From Nonomuraea longispora (GTDB lineage: Bacteria; Actinomycetota; Actinomycetes; Streptosporangiales; Streptosporangiaceae): 64,000 nucleotides of DNA. The position numbers and the translations under genes are program-made. The notes beneath the pieces were generated by a model. It did not search any database and was not told where the DNA came from. It saw only the letters and a program-made list of their open reading frames with translations. Each line of letters opens with the position of its first letter. The stretch's first letter is position 1. Below, piece after piece: positions 18,651-26,014 of the stretch. The DNA lies in the NCBI RefSeq assembly GCF_004348345.1, contig NZ_SMJZ01000015.1:1-64000 (forward strand), written 5' to 3'.

Positions 18651-19061
18651 ATGGACGGCGGACGACTGCACCGGCTCGGCAAGCGCCTGATCGAGCTGTC
18701 CTCGCAGGCCACCGGTGAGGACAGCGACCTGGCGCTCACCCCCGGTGAGGCAGCTGTCCTGGAAGACGTGATCAAGCACCCGGCCAGCTCGATCAGCGAG
18801 ATCCACCAGCGGACGGGCTTCGTGCAGAGCCACGTGTCCGTGTCGGTATCGCGCCTCAAAGCACGTGGCCTGGTGGAAGCCGTGACCGACCCGAGCGACG
18901 GGCGGCGCACCCGGGTCCGCATCGCCGACGCGGCATTGCAGGCGATCACCCGCCGCGCAGCCCGCCGCATCGACCAGGTGCTCGGCCGCACCATCGATGA
19001 CCCCGCCCAGGCGCGCCGGGCTACCGAGCTGCTGGAGGAGTTGGCCGACCTCCTGCTGTGA
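18651..19061 (+). CDS. MarR-family transcriptional regulator
   Basis: A 136-residue regulator with a central winged helix (LTPGEAAVLEDVIKHPASSI, then RTGFVQSHVSVSVSRLKARGLVE, wing DPSDGRRTRVRI) flanked by dimerisation helices. Its ATG lies right behind a -10 box with no ribosome binding site, so the message is probably leaderless. The 26-bp palindrome upstream is the likely operator for repression of itself and the divergent methyltransferase. The inducing ligand is unknown. Confidence 0.88.
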   Translation: MDGGRLHRLGKRLIELSSQATGEDSDLALTPGEAAVLEDVIKHPASSISEIHQRTGFVQSHVSVSVSRLKARGLVEAVTDPSDGRRTRVRIADAALQAITRRAARRIDQVLGRTIDDPAQARRATELLEELADLLL

Positions 19062-19418: not shown

Positions 19419-20090
19419 TCATGACGGGCGCAGGCCGCGTAGCCGGGACCACGAGATCAGCACGTGGACCCGGTCCGGCAGGTCGAGCTTGGCCAGGATG
19501 CTCGAGACATGCACTTTCACGGTGTAGTGGCTGATGAAGAGCTGGTGTGCGATTTCGTTGTTGGACATGCCTTGTGCGATGAGCTCGCAGACCTGGGTTT
19601 CGCGCTCGGTGAGCCGGTCGGCCGCCGCCAGTAGCGCCCGGTCCTCGTCGGTGGGCAGCAGGGGCTGCAGCGCCTCGATCATCCGCGTGGTGGCTTCCGG
19701 CGCCAGTACGGACTGCCCGGCCGCGACGATTCTGATGCCGTCGCGGATCCGCTCGCCGGGCGCGTCCTTGAGCAGGAACCCGCTGGCCCCGGCCTGCAGT
19801 CCGGCGTAGACGTAGCTGTCCAGGTCGAAGGTCGTCAGGATCAGCACCCGGGTGGGTCCGCCTGCGTTGTGCTCGACGATGCGGCGGGTTGCCTCGATTC
19901 CGTTCATTCCGGGTAGCCGGATGTCCATCAGCACTACGTCCGGCCGGTGGTCGGCCACGGCGGCCACCGCGGCAGCGCCGTCTCCGACGGCGTCCACCAC
20001 GGTCAGGTCGTCGGCCGCCCCGACCAGGCGTACCAGCGCCTCCCGGAGGAGCTGCTCGTCGTCGCAGATCAGGACCCGGATGCCGGTCAT
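19419..20090 (-). CDS. NarL/LuxR-family response regulator
   Basis: A 223-residue regulator: receiver domain (residues 1-120) with DDE acid pocket (CDDEQ), phospho-acceptor Asp in VVLMDIRLPG, conserved Thr (LTTF) and Lys (LLKDA), then a LuxR-type HTH (about 155-215, LTERETQVCELIAQGMSNNEIA). The ATG overlaps the kinase stop by four bases (ATGA). It is the last gene of a six-gene operon, so it likely answers the signal sensed by the exported and membrane proteins upstream. The 16-bp palindrome at 24652 is a candidate binding site. Confidence 0.93.
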   Translation of the reverse strand: MTGIRVLICDDEQLLREALVRLVGAADDLTVVDAVGDGAAAVAAVADHRPDVVLMDIRLPGMNGIEATRRIVEHNAGGPTRVLILTTFDLDSYVYAGLQAGASGFLLKDAPGERIRDGIRIVAAGQSVLAPEATTRMIEALQPLLPTDEDRALLAAADRLTERETQVCELIAQGMSNNEIAHQLFISHYTVKVHVSSILAKLDLPDRVHVLISWSRLRGLRPS

Positions 20091-21181
20091 GATGCGCTCC
20101 GCAGCGGCAGCGTGGCGCGGACCTCGAACGTGGTGGAGCCGCTGGTCACCTTCACTGAGCCGCCGAGCAGCTCGACGCGTTCCCTCATGCCGATGAGTCC
20201 CACGCCGGCCCCGTTCCCGATGGTTCTGGTTCCGCCGCGCACCGGGTTGGTGACGCGTATGGTCAGGCGTGCTGGCTCGTAGGTCAGCAGCACCCGCGCG
20301 TCGACGGGGCCGGCGTGCTTGGCGATGTTGGTCAGCGCTTCCTGCACGACGCGGTAGGCCGCCAGTTCGATGCTGGCGTCCACCTGGCGTACGGCTCCGC
20401 GGCGCTCCAGCAGCGCCCGCGGCCCGCCCGGCGGTGAGGCGGCCACCAGGTCGTCGAGCTGCTGCAGTTTCGGGGGCGGCGCCAGCGGATTGTGCCCGGG
20501 CGGCGCCTCTCGCAGCACGCCGAGCAGCCGCCGCAGCTCGGCCAGCGATTCCCGCCCGGTGTGGGCCACGCGGCGCAGTGTCTCCTCCATGCTGTCCCGG
20601 GTGTCGGCCCCCGCCTCGGCGTCGAGGACCATCGTGGTCACCGAGTGATTGAGAATGTCGTGCAGTTCCCTGGCCAGCAGCGCCCGCTCGCGTTCGGCCG
20701 CCCGCCGCTCGAGATCCGTCCGCTCGGCCTCGAGCTGCTGCGAGCGCTCCTGCAGCTCACGGATACGATCCCGCTGCCGCGCGTCCAGCCGCCCCACCGC
20801 CCAGAACCCGACGAACAGCAGCGCGAGCGCCGAGTAGACCGCAAGCACCCGGATCGGGTCGCCGATGGCCAGCAGCGTCAGCGGTAGGCCGGCGAGCAGC
20901 AGAACCAGCACCGAGACGACACCGATCACGCGCCGGTCCCCCCGGCCCCACGCCCCCAGACGGGAGGCGGCGACCAGGGGAGCCACCAGGACCGGCATCG
21001 TCATCAACGCCAGCGCCAGCTCGAGCGCGACGACGATGCCCAGCGCGGTCAGCGGGTAGCGGCGCGAACCCATCAGCGCGAGGGATTGCCCGCAGGCCAG
21101 CGCCAGCACGACGACATCCTCGCCCCGGCCGATCAGCCAGCAGACCAGCAGCGGAAGGATGGCCAGCACACCATCGCTCAT
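20087..21181 (-). CDS. Sensor histidine kinase, NarL-partner (HisKA_3) type
   Basis: A 364-residue membrane kinase. Residues 1-140 hold several transmembrane helices without a large extracytoplasmic domain; a coiled coil (about 140-185) leads to HisKA_3 with the phosphorylated His in LLARELHDILNHSV. The HATPase region has EALTNIAKHAG (N-box) and GAGVGLIGMRERVELLGG. ATG 21181 is chosen because it overlaps the upstream stop (ATGA); the longer frame to 21607 is a shadow of that gene. With no sensor domain of its own, it may sense through partner proteins in the operon. Confidence 0.92.
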   Translation of the reverse strand: MSDGVLAILPLLVCWLIGRGEDVVVLALACGQSLALMGSRRYPLTALGIVVALELALALMTMPVLVAPLVAASRLGAWGRGDRRVIGVVSVLVLLLAGLPLTLLAIGDPIRVLAVYSALALLFVGFWAVGRLDARQRDRIRELQERSQQLEAERTDLERRAAERERALLARELHDILNHSVTTMVLDAEAGADTRDSMEETLRRVAHTGRESLAELRRLLGVLREAPPGHNPLAPPPKLQQLDDLVAASPPGGPRALLERRGAVRQVDASIELAAYRVVQEALTNIAKHAGPVDARVLLTYEPARLTIRVTNPVRGGTRTIGNGAGVGLIGMRERVELLGGSVKVTSGSTTFEVRATLPLRSAS

Positions 21182-21759
21182 CCACTCCAGGTGTGTGTGG
21201 CGCCGCGCCGCAGCCGCCGGGTGCGGCGCCAGCCCGTGGCCACCAGAAGCGCCACCGGCGCCCAGGGCGTCAGCGCGACCGTCCAGCTCAGCGCGAGTGG
21301 CGGCCCCGGCTGCTCGATCGTCCGGATCGGCAGCACCCCTGTCGAGATCCCGCCCGGTCCTTCCACGGCAAACTCGAACTGCCATGTGCCCTCCTCCGGC
21401 AGCGAGACGACGTCCAGCCCCCACACCTGGGGGGCTCTCGGGTGCCGTGGCAGCACGATGCTGTCGCCACGCCGCTGCAGGACGATGCCCTTGAGCCCCT
21501 GCCGGTCGCCGGATGGTGAGACGACCGTGACCAAGCCGGCGCGCCCGTCGATGCCCCCGGTGGGCTCGAAGGTGAAGTCGAGCGACTGCAGCGCGTGGAT
21601 CGGCCATTCAGTGAACGATACGGTGATCGCGGAATGGTCGCTCATGCGCACGATCTCGCTGTGGACGATCTCACCCTGCAGGGGCGCCGCCATGGCAGGG
21701 CCCGCGCCGGTGAGCACCACAGCCCCGGCCGCGAGCACCGCGGTGATGAGGCGTCTCAT
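21178..21759 (-). CDS. Small exported protein with C-terminal membrane anchor
   Basis: A 193-residue protein: Sec signal peptide (residues 1-26, MRRLITAVLAAGAVVLTGAG then AMAAP), an extracytoplasmic beta-rich domain (about 27-155, with an SFTEWPIHALQSLDF segment) and one transmembrane helix near residue 165-182 followed by a basic tail (RRTRRLRRG). No family is recognised with certainty; the overall plan resembles CopC/YtkA-like exported domains. Both ends overlap neighbours by four bases, so it is made in step with the kinase and the membrane protein. It is a candidate signal input for the kinase. Confidence 0.7.
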   Translation of the reverse strand: MRRLITAVLAAGAVVLTGAGPAMAAPLQGEIVHSEIVRMSDHSAITVSFTEWPIHALQSLDFTFEPTGGIDGRAGLVTVVSPSGDRQGLKGIVLQRRGDSIVLPRHPRAPQVWGLDVVSLPEEGTWQFEFAVEGPGGISTGVLPIRTIEQPGPPLALSWTVALTPWAPVALLVATGWRRTRRLRRGATHTWSG

Positions 21760-22850
21760 GCGGGCACCGCCCCTGGCGTGCGCAGGCCGAAGCAGCGCAG
21801 CAGGGACGCGCACTGCCAGCCCAGCCAGCCTGTGCCCGCCCCGAGTGCGGCGACCGCCACCAGCGTGGCGGGCAAGTTCATCTCCATCCCCACGGCGCCG
21901 TAGAAGAGCGCGGTGTTGACGCCGGCCAGCGCACCGATCGACGGCGCGATCCACAGCGGGCTCACGTTACGTCGCGCGGCCCACGTCACCGCCGCGGCGG
22001 CCAGCAGCGCGATCAGCGGGAACGTGACGGGAGCCCCGATCAGGACCTGTGGCATGCCGGAGGCGTAATCGCGCATCGGCTGGTCGATCGCCCCGGCGTA
22101 CCAGCGGGTGGCGGCCGGGACGCACAACGCGAGCCCGCCCTGCACGACCACGAACGCCAGCCCGGCCGCGGCCGGCCAGTGCCAGCGCCGGGTGAGCCCG
22201 ACGATGAGGCTCAGCATGAGCGCGCCCGCCGCGCCGAGTCCGAGCACGCGCGGCGCCACGCCCGGCAGCCAGTTGAAGATCAGCTCGGACAGCATGCCGA
22301 ACGCCGACGTCGAACCGAGGGTCGCCAGAGCGATCGCCACCGCCAGGCCCCACCTGTCGGACCTGGTGCGCCGCAGCACTGCGAACGCCATCACCATGGC
22401 GAAGATCTCCACCTGGATCGACAGGCCCAGCCCGAAGTGCGAGGGTGTCGTCCCGGCCGCGATGTCGAAGCCGTACAGGTCGTGCCACCACAGGTCGGAG
22501 CCCGCGTACAGCAGGTTGGCCGCCGCGCCGAGCCCGCCCACCAGGAACGGCCAGGGTGCGCGGAACGTGCGGAACACCATCACCGACGGGGTCTCGGTCG
22601 CCGGTCCTCGGGCCCAGGTCGACAGCAGCACCACGGACAGGCAGGACAGACCGATGATGCCGGTCCCGGCATACAGCAGCAGGTGAGGCGCAGTCCAGAA
22701 GTTGTCGGGCCCGACGTCGCCGTGCCACTGACCGTCCCAGATCATGCCGGCCAGCAGTGTGGCGTAGCCGGACATCAGGAACCAGGCTCCGGCTACCTCT
22801 CTGCGCGGCACCTCACGAGCCGGTGGATCCGTGGATGGTTGTTCCGCCAT
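21756..22850 (-). CDS. Polytopic membrane protein of unknown function
   Basis: A 364-residue protein with about nine to ten predicted membrane helices. His residues cluster in loops: DGQWHGDVGPDNFWTAPHLL near residue 40, LWWHDLYGFD near residue 119 and SHFG soon after. Such His/Trp-rich loops near membrane edges could bind metal or heme, but I do not recognise the family. The ATG has no rival start nearby, and 12 bases separate it from the preceding gene. Its stop overlaps the next gene start. Confidence 0.75.
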   Translation of the reverse strand: MAEQPSTDPPAREVPRREVAGAWFLMSGYATLLAGMIWDGQWHGDVGPDNFWTAPHLLLYAGTGIIGLSCLSVVLLSTWARGPATETPSVMVFRTFRAPWPFLVGGLGAAANLLYAGSDLWWHDLYGFDIAAGTTPSHFGLGLSIQVEIFAMVMAFAVLRRTRSDRWGLAVAIALATLGSTSAFGMLSELIFNWLPGVAPRVLGLGAAGALMLSLIVGLTRRWHWPAAAGLAFVVVQGGLALCVPAATRWYAGAIDQPMRDYASGMPQVLIGAPVTFPLIALLAAAAVTWAARRNVSPLWIAPSIGALAGVNTALFYGAVGMEMNLPATLVAVAALGAGTGWLGWQCASLLRCFGLRTPGAVPA

Positions 22851-22862
22851 GGGGGCATCTCC

Positions 22863-23255
22863 TTACGTTCCGACCAATGTGTTGACCTTGATGACCTCGG
22901 TACCCGCGGCTCCCTGCACGCGGATGTGGATCTCCCAGGCGCCGGGCATGGTGAACAGCTCGCCGCGCGCCACATACCGCCCGGTGCCGTCGTCCCGGGC
23001 GGGGATCTCCGGAGTCGTGTGGCCCATGTGCGGCATCACCCCGAACAGCGACACCTCCGCCTTGACAGCGGGCTCGATCTCTACCCTCGCCTCCAGCGGG
23101 CCGGTGCTCGGTTCGAGGGCGACGACGACCGCGAAATGTGCGCCCCTGCCCGGCAGCTCCATGGGGCCCGGCCCGTCGCCGCCGCGCAGGATCCAGATGA
23201 TCCCGGCCGCGAGCAGCAAGATCGGAAGGGCGATGAACGCGATGCGCCGTGTCAC
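22863..23255 (-). CDS. Small membrane-anchored protein, FixH/YtkA-like domain
   Basis: A 130-residue protein: an N-terminal membrane helix (residues 4-22, IAFIALPILLLAAGIIWIL), then a beta-sandwich-like domain with VVVALEPSTGPLEARVEI, FGVMPHMGHTTPEIPARDDG and MPGAWEIHIRVQG. The PHMGH segment and the W-x-I-x-I-x-V end resemble YtkA/FixH-type domains often linked to copper or cytochrome oxidase assembly. The GTG overlaps the preceding stop (GTGA). Metal binding through Met/His is an inference. Confidence 0.72.
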   Translation of the reverse strand: MTRRIAFIALPILLLAAGIIWILRGGDGPGPMELPGRGAHFAVVVALEPSTGPLEARVEIEPAVKAEVSLFGVMPHMGHTTPEIPARDDGTGRYVARGELFTMPGAWEIHIRVQGAAGTEVIKVNTLVGT

Positions 23256-24592
23256 GGCGTGCCCCTTACCTCGACAACGTGTGGAACCGTGACGATCTCG
23301 TAGTTCTTTGCGTACTGGATCCACATCAGGTATCGGCCCGGCCGGGGGAAGCTGAAGGTGAACTCCAGCTTGGGCGCATAGGCCGCGACGGATTCGTCCG
23401 GCACGCGCTGCGAACCGGGAACCATCGAGCGGGCCTCGTGCACGTGGCCGAGGAAGCCGCCGTCCTGACTGCGCACCACGAGGTGCCCGGCCATGCCGAG
23501 CCACGGCTGCAGGCTGGCGACGCCGGTGTCGAGCGTGACAGTTACGGGCCGCCCGGCCTCCGGCTGCGCCGGCGCGGTGACCGGGACTCCTCCCGAAGCC
23601 GCGCCTGTTACGGTGGGAACGCCGTCTGCTGCCTGCTTCGGGCCGCCCACCGTGAACTCGCCCGTGACCAGCTGCCCGCCCGCATCGGCACGCTCGAACT
23701 CGGCATACACCCAGTGCCGCCCTTGCTCCTGCGCACGCAGCCGCACCTCGTACGTGCCCGGCGCCGTGCGGATCGGATGCACGTGATGGAAGTACGAGCC
23801 GTCCTGGTTGGTCACCACGAGGTGCGACAACGCGGCATGGTGCTCCACCAGGTCGTCCACCGGGCCGCCCGTCGAGCCGTCGAACAACTCCACGCGCAAC
23901 CGGAACTCCGACCCCGGACCGGGCTCGCCGGGCAGAACTGCGATCACCGGTTGCGCGTTCGGCCGCCCCAGCATCACATCCCGCGACGCGGGTGGCGCCC
24001 CCTCGGGCACCATCGGAGCGAACCACGGGGAGAGCAGCCCGGCGGTGAACGCCACCACCGTCGCCACCACGACCCCGCCTGCGAACCCCGCGGCGGCCAG
24101 CCGCCTGGACAGCGCCGCGCTCACCAGGGCGCCGACCAGCGCCACCGCCGCGCAGGCGAAGGCCGCGTACACGACCACCTCCCACAGCGGCGTCTGCGGC
24201 ACCAGCACGGCGAACGGCAGCACCGACCGTTCCCCGCCGGCGCGAACTTCCAGCTCGTGCGGGCCCACCCGATCCACCGAGAGCACCACCGGGTACATCC
24301 CGGGGCTGCCTGCCTCCACCCGGACCATGCCCGACGAGGAGCGACCACCCTCGACCGGCCTGATCGCCAGATCGATCCGGCCGCCCCGGCCAGGAGCGTG
24401 CGCAACCACGTCCACCTGCAGCGGAGCAGGCACCTGTAGGCTCGCGCGCACCACTACAGTGATCTCCATCCCGGCGATCGTCTGGGCGAAGCGCACATCG
24501 GCCTCGCCACTTCGGCCGTGCGCCCACGCGGGCCCCGCCCAAGCGCCGAGAATCACCAGCGCGACGAGGGTCGTGATCAGAGGTTTGAGCAC
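23252..24592 (-). CDS. Exported/membrane protein with repeated His-motif beta domains
   Basis: A 446-residue protein, first of the operon. Signal peptide 1-24 (ends WAGPAWAHG), an N-terminal beta domain to about 125, two membrane helices (about 135-160 and 168-190), then two related extracytoplasmic domains. Domain A has LSHLVVTNQDGSYFHHVHP; domain B has GMAGHLVVRSQDGGFLGHVHE; each ends in a PGxYxxxxQ/E-type strand. The HxH-type motifs suggest copper or another soft metal as ligand, though no Cys/Met cluster is seen. The GTG at 24592 lies seven bases behind a -10 box, so a leaderless mRNA is likely. Confidence 0.72.
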   Translation of the reverse strand: MLKPLITTLVALVILGAWAGPAWAHGRSGEADVRFAQTIAGMEITVVVRASLQVPAPLQVDVVAHAPGRGGRIDLAIRPVEGGRSSSGMVRVEAGSPGMYPVVLSVDRVGPHELEVRAGGERSVLPFAVLVPQTPLWEVVVYAAFACAAVALVGALVSAALSRRLAAAGFAGGVVVATVVAFTAGLLSPWFAPMVPEGAPPASRDVMLGRPNAQPVIAVLPGEPGPGSEFRLRVELFDGSTGGPVDDLVEHHAALSHLVVTNQDGSYFHHVHPIRTAPGTYEVRLRAQEQGRHWVYAEFERADAGGQLVTGEFTVGGPKQAADGVPTVTGAASGGVPVTAPAQPEAGRPVTVTLDTGVASLQPWLGMAGHLVVRSQDGGFLGHVHEARSMVPGSQRVPDESVAAYAPKLEFTFSFPRPGRYLMWIQYAKNYEIVTVPHVVEVRGTP

Positions 24593-24599
24593 AAGCCAG

Positions 24600-24605
24600 A
24601 GCGTA
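24600..24605 (-). promoter_or_regulatory. -10 element for the six-gene operon (leaderless type)
   Basis: On the minus strand TACGCT ends seven bases before the GTG at 24592. No good -35 is seen, which fits a promoter needing an activator. Confidence 0.45.
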
Positions 24606-24651
24606 GGAAGCCGTCCGCGCCCCGCACATCACGCGCGGGCACTGACCTGCC

Positions 24652-24667
24652 TAGTTCCCGGGAACTA
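24652..24667. promoter_or_regulatory. Perfect 16-bp palindrome upstream of the six-gene operon
   Basis: TAGTTCCCGGGAACTA is fully self-complementary. It lies 60 bases upstream of the operon start and about 47 bases above its -10, a usual activator position. The response regulator encoded by the operon or the AraC protein encoded next door could bind it. Confidence 0.65.
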
Positions 24668-24842: not shown

Positions 24843-25808
24843 TCAACTCGGCAGGGCGTGCTGCCTGAATTCGCTGGCCGAGATGCCGTAGGCGCGGCGG
24901 AAGGCCCTGCTGAAGTCTGAGGCATGGGAGAAACCCCATCCAGAGGCGACCACCCGGATCGGAACATGACGCAACGCCGGATCGGCCAGATCGTGACGCA
25001 CCCGCTCCAGGCGTTGCGCCTTGATCCACGCGGTCACCCTCAGCCCCTCGTCCTGAAACACCCGATGCAGGTAACTGATCGAGATGTGGTGGGCCGTGGC
25101 CAGCACCCGTGGCGTCAGATCCGGCTCACGCAGATGCCGCTGAATGAACCCCTGAACGCGCAGCGCAAGGGCGTGCCGATGGGAACGGCCGCTCACGCTC
25201 ACCCCCTCGGCCTCCAGAGCATGCAGAAACAACGCGGAGATCAAGCTCGCCAGCGTCATCCCCAATCGCTGCCCATCAGCGGGCCGCAACTCATGCGCAC
25301 TCTGGCTGATGTTCACGGTGAAATCGGTGAGCAGGCCACCGATCCCCTCAGTGGACGAAAGGGGACGACTCAGCAGTCCGTCCAGATGCTCGGCCGGCAG
25401 ATTCACGTTCAACAGAGGCTTGGGGACCGTGATGCACATGGCCTGAAAAGCGAACCGGCCATCCGGAGGCCACACGTCGCACGCGATAACACACGGGACA
25501 CCGTGGACCAACAGGTCTCCGACACCTGCGCTGAACCGCTCGTGCCCCCGCACCACCTCCAGCCTCCCCGCCAGCGGGATCAGCAGATGGTACGACTGCC
25601 CGGACCGGGGGTCAGGGCAACGACCCTGATCACGCCCTCCACGCCCCGGGACGATGCTCCTCGTCATCAAACGCAGGCCGCCAAGCCACACCTCCCCCTC
25701 GTCCACGCCTCCCTTCTCGCTGCCGACCTCCACCAGCGAACCAAAGCCGCCACTCCGAACCCGGAATCCGGCAGGGAACTCGGGGGTCAGAAAGGTATCC
25801 TCAGCCAT
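24843..25808 (-). CDS. AraC-family transcriptional regulator
   Basis: A 321-residue regulator. Residues about 35-190 form the AraC-binding-like beta domain (YHLLIPLAGRLEVVRGHERF, ISQSAHELRP). Residues about 215-315 hold the two HTH motifs (LTPRVLATAHHISISYLHRVFQ; IRVVASGWGFSHASDFSRAF, the conserved FSRAFRRAYG signature). ATG 25808 is chosen because GGAG lies five bases upstream. Its target is unknown; it is upstream of and co-directional with the six-gene operon, separated by 250 bases. Confidence 0.9.
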   Translation of the reverse strand: MAEDTFLTPEFPAGFRVRSGGFGSLVEVGSEKGGVDEGEVWLGGLRLMTRSIVPGRGGRDQGRCPDPRSGQSYHLLIPLAGRLEVVRGHERFSAGVGDLLVHGVPCVIACDVWPPDGRFAFQAMCITVPKPLLNVNLPAEHLDGLLSRPLSSTEGIGGLLTDFTVNISQSAHELRPADGQRLGMTLASLISALFLHALEAEGVSVSGRSHRHALALRVQGFIQRHLREPDLTPRVLATAHHISISYLHRVFQDEGLRVTAWIKAQRLERVRHDLADPALRHVPIRVVASGWGFSHASDFSRAFRRAYGISASEFRQHALPS

Positions 25809-26014
25809 CTCGTCTCCGCCTCGGCCTAGCCCTTCGCGACACCGACCAACCCGGCCAGGCACGCCAGGCGGTTACGGAGATTGGGCAGGATCCCGCGCCG
25901 CCGCCTCACTGCGGAGGAACTCCAGCAGATGCTCATTGGACGGGAGGGATTCGCGCAGCCCGGCGACGAGGAACAGGGCGGCTAGCGTGCCCTGGACCGC
26001 CCACAGGAGCACAT

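Follow-up and report, generated by a model that had tools for sequence, protein, structure and literature searches.

In the stretch of DNA analysed here, 64,000 nucleotides of the soil actinomycete Nonomuraea longispora (positions 1 to 64,000 of contig NZ_SMJZ01000015.1; "the window"), six consecutive genes on the minus strand at 19419..24667 encode the envelope proteins A446, B130, C364 and D193, a histidine kinase and a NarL-type response regulator. The finding of most interest is a PmoC-type double motif in the membrane protein C364, and thus in a regulated envelope cassette outside the copper membrane monooxygenases (CuMMOs); an earlier note, made from the sequence alone, had described the genes and overlooked these paired motifs, the main point of the locus. 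The C364 superfamily likely shares ancestry with PmoC, which is not proven. That the operon specifies a copper-handling complex of the cell envelope, whose membrane subunit is PmoC-like and which its own two-component system turns on, is a reading that we hold with about even confidence. A full-text literature search, judged by titles and abstract beginnings among the matches listed and exclusive of subscription papers and preprints, yielded no description of the cassette or of a PmoC-related superfamily outside the CuMMOs.

Ligand Motifs of C364 and Comparison With PmoC

The polytopic membrane protein C364 (364 amino acids, 21756..22850, minus strand) contains a CuC-type motif, D39-x3-H43-x12-H56 (22683..22736, minus strand), and a CuD-type motif, D119-x3-H123-x14-H138 (22437..22496, minus strand); their six Asp and His residues are invariant throughout alignment A2, which has 16 rows. 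Their spacings match those of the PmoC copper ligands, the second within one residue; the available text of PMC12576850 gives Asp156, His160 and His173 as CuC ligands, and Asn227, His231 and His245 as CuD ligands. In cassette relatives outside the window type, the second motif is one residue shorter, the same as in PmoC. Aligned to the PmoC sites, both CuMMO ligand sets are present in C364, with Asp in the place of Asn227. The protein had been called rich in histidine and tryptophan; the latter holds (17 tryptophans), the former does not (five histidines, four of them within the paired motifs). Since the motif loops carry no lysine or arginine and the inner loops carry three, three and four, the charge counts suggest that both motifs sit outside the cytoplasm.

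Profiles of C364 relatives were compared with a set of PmoC proteins from viral contigs, picked by motif pattern, of which 110 of 120 remained when 10 had been removed by length. The 16-row C364 profile matched this set at P 6.2e-5 with both motifs paired in register, and a 60-row superfamily profile, trimmed to the motif region, matched it at P 8.7e-7 (probability 91.5%); the rows of the latter came from 82 matches, of which 61 were left after removal of near-copies and 60 after one without a clear second motif was dropped. Among 100 decoys, either reversed-and-rotated or block-shuffled, the lowest P was 0.26, and the best value of four unrelated membrane families against PmoC was 0.34. Masking both motifs left a match at P 5.7e-4, in the same register across its first part, and the 14 mid-size rows by themselves matched PmoC at P 1.4e-5. 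At the place of PmoC Arg165, a residue that hydrogen-bonds a nearby water (PMC12576850), Arg is found in all 22 long relatives and in 10 of the 13 of mid size. When the 16-row profile was searched blind against the PDB, eight of the nine distinct matches at E <= 10 were PmoC or AmoC; none is significant alone (best E 0.2), and the two alignments shown pair at D-x3-H-x12-H.

C364 has no Pfam family at E <= 1 and remains below the cut-off of PF04896 (PmoC/AmoC), a profile that gave one match, at E 0.23, on the 16 aligned C relatives. The 16 relatives scanned against Pfam yielded nothing convincing (best FixH, E 0.007 in one), and five further superfamily members had no match at E <= 0.1 in Pfam or NCBIfam. 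No further C364 relatives were found in viral contigs.

Copper Links and Envelope Partners

Copper, which the earlier note had proposed alongside a related metal, is the best-supported metal of the cassette through three links, the PmoC profile match, the YtkA family and CopD neighbours, from which binding itself is predicted. The CopD link comes from C relatives of about 400 amino acids: a homologue of the CopD-domain protein of locus L094 is found nearby in 20 of 20 loci, the window's own genome included. Eighteen of these loci were picked from the order-wide profile listing (L250-L267) and joined by L093 and L094, and they represent one family and are not independent; the L094 protein alone was scanned with Pfam, the others counting as its homologues, and in 17 of the 20 loci the C gene itself was among the genes called. 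The two genes are mostly adjacent and convergent (about 1.5 kb apart in L251). Both loci of the same set with a C relative of 600 amino acids have no CopD homologue, and the six operon proteins contain neither a CopD (PF05425) nor a CopC domain. Among 20 neighbours of C-superfamily relatives compared with Pfam, few were of copper type: L094 has CopD beside it, and L025 has a multicopper-oxidase-like protein in its vicinity.

The YtkA link is provided by B130 (130 amino acids, 22863..23255, minus strand), an anchored protein with the sequence MPHMGH; called FixH/YtkA-like in the earlier note, it narrowly passes the YtkA family PF13115 (E 1e-5, 26.6 bits against a cut-off of 25.9). The available text of PMC13344008 reports that in Bacillus subtilis both CtaK (YtkA) and the YcnJ YtkA domain contribute to the function of cytochrome c oxidase, and postulates a role in CuA assembly. 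A446 (446 amino acids, 23252..24592, minus strand) has a signal peptide, an immunoglobulin-like (Ig-like) domain, two membrane helices (hydrophobic stretches 139-157 and 165-183) and two C-terminal domains that are tandem copies with the same His-x12-His-x-His pattern (mutual match P 1e-7), at H257-x12-H270-x-H272 and H370-x12-H383-x-H385, where invariant residues were taken from 11 sequences. Its Filamin match is weak and under the Pfam cut-off (21 bits against 26.9). The HVHP and HVHE motifs reported earlier are indeed present in A446, as is PHMGH in B130. D193 (193 amino acids, 21178..21759, minus strand) is exported, has a C-terminal membrane anchor and distantly resembles B130 (profile match P 6.8e-5); seven PDB matches of its profile (best E 0.0084), all eukaryotic receptor-type proteins, were rejected. 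A446, C364 and D193 have nothing over a Pfam cut-off, and these three and B130 nothing over NCBIfam cut-offs.

The longer C relatives (L063-L076, L095, L096, L029) occupy open frames of 485-913 amino acids. In L063, L095, L096 and L029 the double-motif membrane part runs on, judged by eye, into an Ig/FixH-like stretch, for which Pfam gave no match in L063, L095 and L096; this continuity suggests joint action of C and its partner outside the cytoplasm. As to other neighbours, the C relative of L025 lies near a sortase as well as the multicopper-oxidase-like protein, which has 136 amino acids, and those of L065 and L096 are located beside a MerR regulator.

Operon Layout and Distribution

The six genes occupy the places and have the lengths previously assigned to them, and the junctions are as described: A446/B130, C364/D193, D193/kinase and kinase/regulator overlap by 4 bases, and B130 and C364 are separated by 12 bases. 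The genes A, B, C and D follow each other in identical order in 22 complete loci, the window and 21 others, and the operon order is therefore not due to chance; L086, cut off in C by the edge of its contig, was excluded from this count. The distribution counts take in the window's own genome. A kinase adjoins 18 of the 22 complete cassettes, downstream as in the window in nine, divergent in seven and upstream on the same strand in two, and the regulator adjoins the kinase in 17; L087 has only a short regulator match at the stretch edge, about 3 kb off. Together with the promoter palindrome described below, which appears to be dedicated to the operon, these counts support the proposal that the six genes behave as a unit.

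Named loci with the same operon come from Thermocatellispora, Microtetraspora and Nonomuraea. In searches with the C364 protein, relatives were found in nine of 150 genomes of the family and in seven of 396 drawn from the phylum; the profile search recovered the wider superfamily in 136 of 249 genomes of the order, in many through the second motif region only, and in 14 of 24 genomes within the class of G338. Incomplete loci include L092 (C and D with a kinase belonging to neither of the clades described below), L091 (C alone) and L097 (C and D fragments). Neighbour clustering, which returned mostly shadow frames, revealed by eye no flanking family shared among the cassettes. In L004, a metagenome bin, C and D follow genes for a GMC oxidoreductase, a methyltransferase and a DUF4352 protein, an observation not used for inference. 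Around the operon of the window, an AraC-type regulator is encoded upstream on the same strand (24843-25862), and a MarR-type regulator on the plus strand (18651-19061), past the end of the NarL-type regulator gene.

Two-Component System and Promoter

The kinase (364 amino acids, 20087..21181, minus strand; HisKA_3 and HATPase_c) and the regulator (223 amino acids, 19419..20090, minus strand; receiver PF00072, E 2.3e-25, and GerE PF00196, E 2e-18) form a NarL/FixJ-type pair with all four domains over the Pfam cut-offs. The kinase had been described as having no sensor domain of its own; it does have no extracytoplasmic domain, yet its four hydrophobic stretches (11-29, 49-67, 88-106 and 112-130) indicate that it is membrane-embedded. 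A tree of 51 kinase rows comprised nine of the downstream type, ten of the divergent and upstream types (two of them pieces of L080), L092 and L097; the window's own genome, with 62 HisKA_3 matches, contributed 30 rows drawn from 29 of these. L246 was omitted, as was the second kinase in both L079 and L081. The downstream-type kinases form one clade and the divergent/upstream type another, each with 100/100 support, and the union of the two is neither supported nor rejected (approximately unbiased test, p-AU 0.486); the two clades may stem from the divergence of a single old pair or from two separate acquisitions of a NarL-type pair by the cassette. The L002 kinase appears shortened (tblastn match only to residues 1-21 and 222-364, at L002:9736-10275), and those of L080, L081 and L085 appear shortened or split between frames or pieces, which could reflect decay or sequencing error.

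The operator-like TAGTTCCCGGGAACTA (24652..24667) is a perfect 16-bp palindrome, and its outer edge, 24667, is the position previously given as the operon end. Its pattern TAGTTCC-N2-GGAACTA occurs, with at most one mismatch, 74 or 75 bases upstream of the A446 GTG (at -74/-75) in 10 of 10 window-type loci (the window, L001, L002, L003, L017, L081, L082, L083, L084 and L086). In these loci it is followed by a second conserved promoter element, gGC-gGTCAGTGCC in the window (24637..24651, minus strand) and GGC-GGTCAGTGCC across the loci, and then by TCCTA-GCTC a few bases ahead of the start. Both the palindrome and the element that follows it have a mean majority fraction of 0.94, versus 0.47-0.50 farther upstream; this conservation is partly common descent, since the loci are related. 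The putative -10-like promoter element TCCTACGCTC (24599..24608, minus strand) leaves only 7 bases between TACGCT and the A446 GTG, so that the transcript is probably leaderless.

Within the window genome, the palindrome occurs once within one mismatch, and at two mismatches in one more place, versus four for the backward pattern. Across 21 genomes, at up to one mismatch, it is located at the operon in nine of nine with a window-type cassette, and the non-operon sites number two in all: a second site in G598 and one in G584, the only one of six same-genus genomes without a window-type cassette that has it. None was found in the six genomes with the other cassette type, and the backward control pattern appeared once in each of four of the 21 genomes. 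The palindrome may thus be a dedicated activator site. Upstream of A446 in the other cassette type, GTCCCCC-N4-GGGGGAC is present in three of 13 loci (L023, L079 and L080) and a related palindrome in three of 13 (L022, L087 and L089).

A Proposed Copper-Handling Complex and Its Alternatives

As a copper-handling complex, the cassette would work as follows. C364 would represent an unnamed PmoC-related superfamily, and its two D/H/H metal sites, on the extracytoplasmic side, would be the counterparts of CuC and CuD; A446 with its two His domains, the YtkA-like B130 and the anchored D193 would gather copper outside the membrane and hand it to or from C364, in a transfer that may resemble the CopC, CopD and YtkA parts of Bacillus YcnJ working with YcnI. 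The membrane-embedded kinase would read the state of the envelope complex or the surrounding copper, and the regulator would bind the single palindrome at -75 and drive its own operon only. The parts of this explanation that we infer are copper binding and the direction in which copper flows, the formation of a complex, the binding of the regulator, and the input to the kinase, including the sensor role that the earlier note suggested for the exported proteins.

Several observations weigh against it. Selecting the PmoC proteins by their own motif gives that motif an advantage in the comparison, and the match depends on the alignment used: the 22 long rows matched PmoC at P 0.0015 over the first motif only, and the 25 core (cassette) rows at P 0.018 in a different register. 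Among the four membrane families used as controls, one gave a match to the superfamily at P 0.0059, and all 25 cassette rows have Pro at the Arg165 place. An AlphaFold2 model of C364 from five sequences was unusable (mean predicted local distance difference test score, pLDDT, 43.5), and no fold search was based on it. The D/H/H sites could hold zinc or iron, and no copper gene common to the cassette flanks was recognised. Co-occurrence with the kinase, which the earlier note had set as a check on its proposal, holds for most complete cassettes and breaks down in four of the 22 (L019, L021, L088 and L090), which have neither kinase nor regulator within their 14-kb stretches, and in L004, where C and D occur without the pair; the exported genes therefore do not need the pair everywhere. 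L021 is nested in a kinase-bearing group of the C tree, and kinase loss is likely there.

A rather unlikely alternative is a copper-dependent membrane oxidoreductase, a monooxygenase without PmoA and PmoB in which C364 would be catalytic and A446, B130 and D193 would serve as electron or copper partners. Both ligand sets proposed for the active site of particulate methane monooxygenase (pMMO) are present in C364, Arg is retained at the Arg165 place in the long and most mid-size relatives, and the Ig-like domain, two helices and further extracytoplasmic domains of A446 recall the layout of PmoB; the substitution by Pro throughout the cassette form speaks against catalysis, as do the A446 profile, for which the PDB holds no match at E <= 10, and the flanks, where no dehydrogenase or electron-carrier family common to the cassettes was recognised. 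Neither PmoB nor PmoA was found among the six proteins, and PF04896 (at E <= 0.001), PF04744 (PmoB) and PF02461 (PmoA) had no match in any of the 21 genomes, nor in a control genome, so that absence is not proven. A system for another metal or for haem, with zinc, iron or haem on the paired histidines, seems quite improbable given that the PmoC, YtkA and CopD links all indicate copper. Paired membrane histidines can hold haem. A site of the CuC type can take zinc, since zinc there abolishes pMMO activity (PMC12576850).

That the operon is primarily a sensing device, with A446, B130, C364 and D193 as accessory sensors for the kinase and no role in transport or catalysis, we regard as very improbable. 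Such a device would fit a kinase that has no extracytoplasmic domain and whose start codon overlaps the end of D193, the presence of a kinase from one of two strongly supported clades in most complete cassettes, and an operator-like palindrome essentially confined to the operon; it fits poorly with the kinase-free cassettes and L004, and with C relatives that occur beside CopD or other regulators, and a one-operon regulon would make a pure sensor pointless. A broader view, which we consider decidedly unlikely, places PmoC within a far larger superfamily, whose membrane proteins with copper sites would be the stock from which the methane and ammonia monooxygenases arose; the operon would then be a living non-CuMMO branch with its own copper-dependent membrane redox chemistry, reporting its loading to the kinase.

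Significance and Comparison With Known Systems

It is still disputed at which of the copper sites of pMMO the chemistry takes place (PMC12576850). A broad superfamily in which both ligand sets, CuC and CuD, persist although the remaining CuMMO subunits are missing would offer simpler proteins for testing those sites, and a route to the origins of the CuMMOs. With a single, near-unique operator-like site in each genome, the regulatory circuit appears unusually clean, and the operon presents a testable case of a membrane kinase that has no extracytoplasmic sensor domain and is paired with predicted extracytoplasmic metal proteins.

Like PmoC/AmoC (PF04896), C364 is a membrane protein with D-x3-H-x12-H followed by N/D-x3-H-x13-H in the same order and at a similar distance; unlike them, it has Asp for the CuD-type Asn, Pro at the Arg165 place in the cassette form, a longer C-terminal membrane part, and A446, B130 and D193 as partners. 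B130 belongs to the YtkA/CtaK family (PF13115) by its Pfam match and differs in its company, since it accompanies A446, C364 and D193 and the cassette flanks share no recognised oxidase family. The copper two-component systems CusRS and CopRS unite kinase and regulator with copper-handling genes, as may be the case here; the operon differs from them in its HisKA_3 kinase, which has no extracytoplasmic domain, and its NarL-type regulator. In the available text of PMC12362106, B. subtilis YcnJ is a CopC-CopD-YtkA fusion found with the anchored YcnI. In that system, where YcnI is the copper donor, a polytopic membrane part, a YtkA-like domain and anchored extracytoplasmic proteins are combined in one operon, as in the window, whereas the six proteins described here include no CopC or CopD domain, C364 is not matched by a Pfam family, and a kinase and NarL-type regulator stand where Bacillus has the repressor YcnK.

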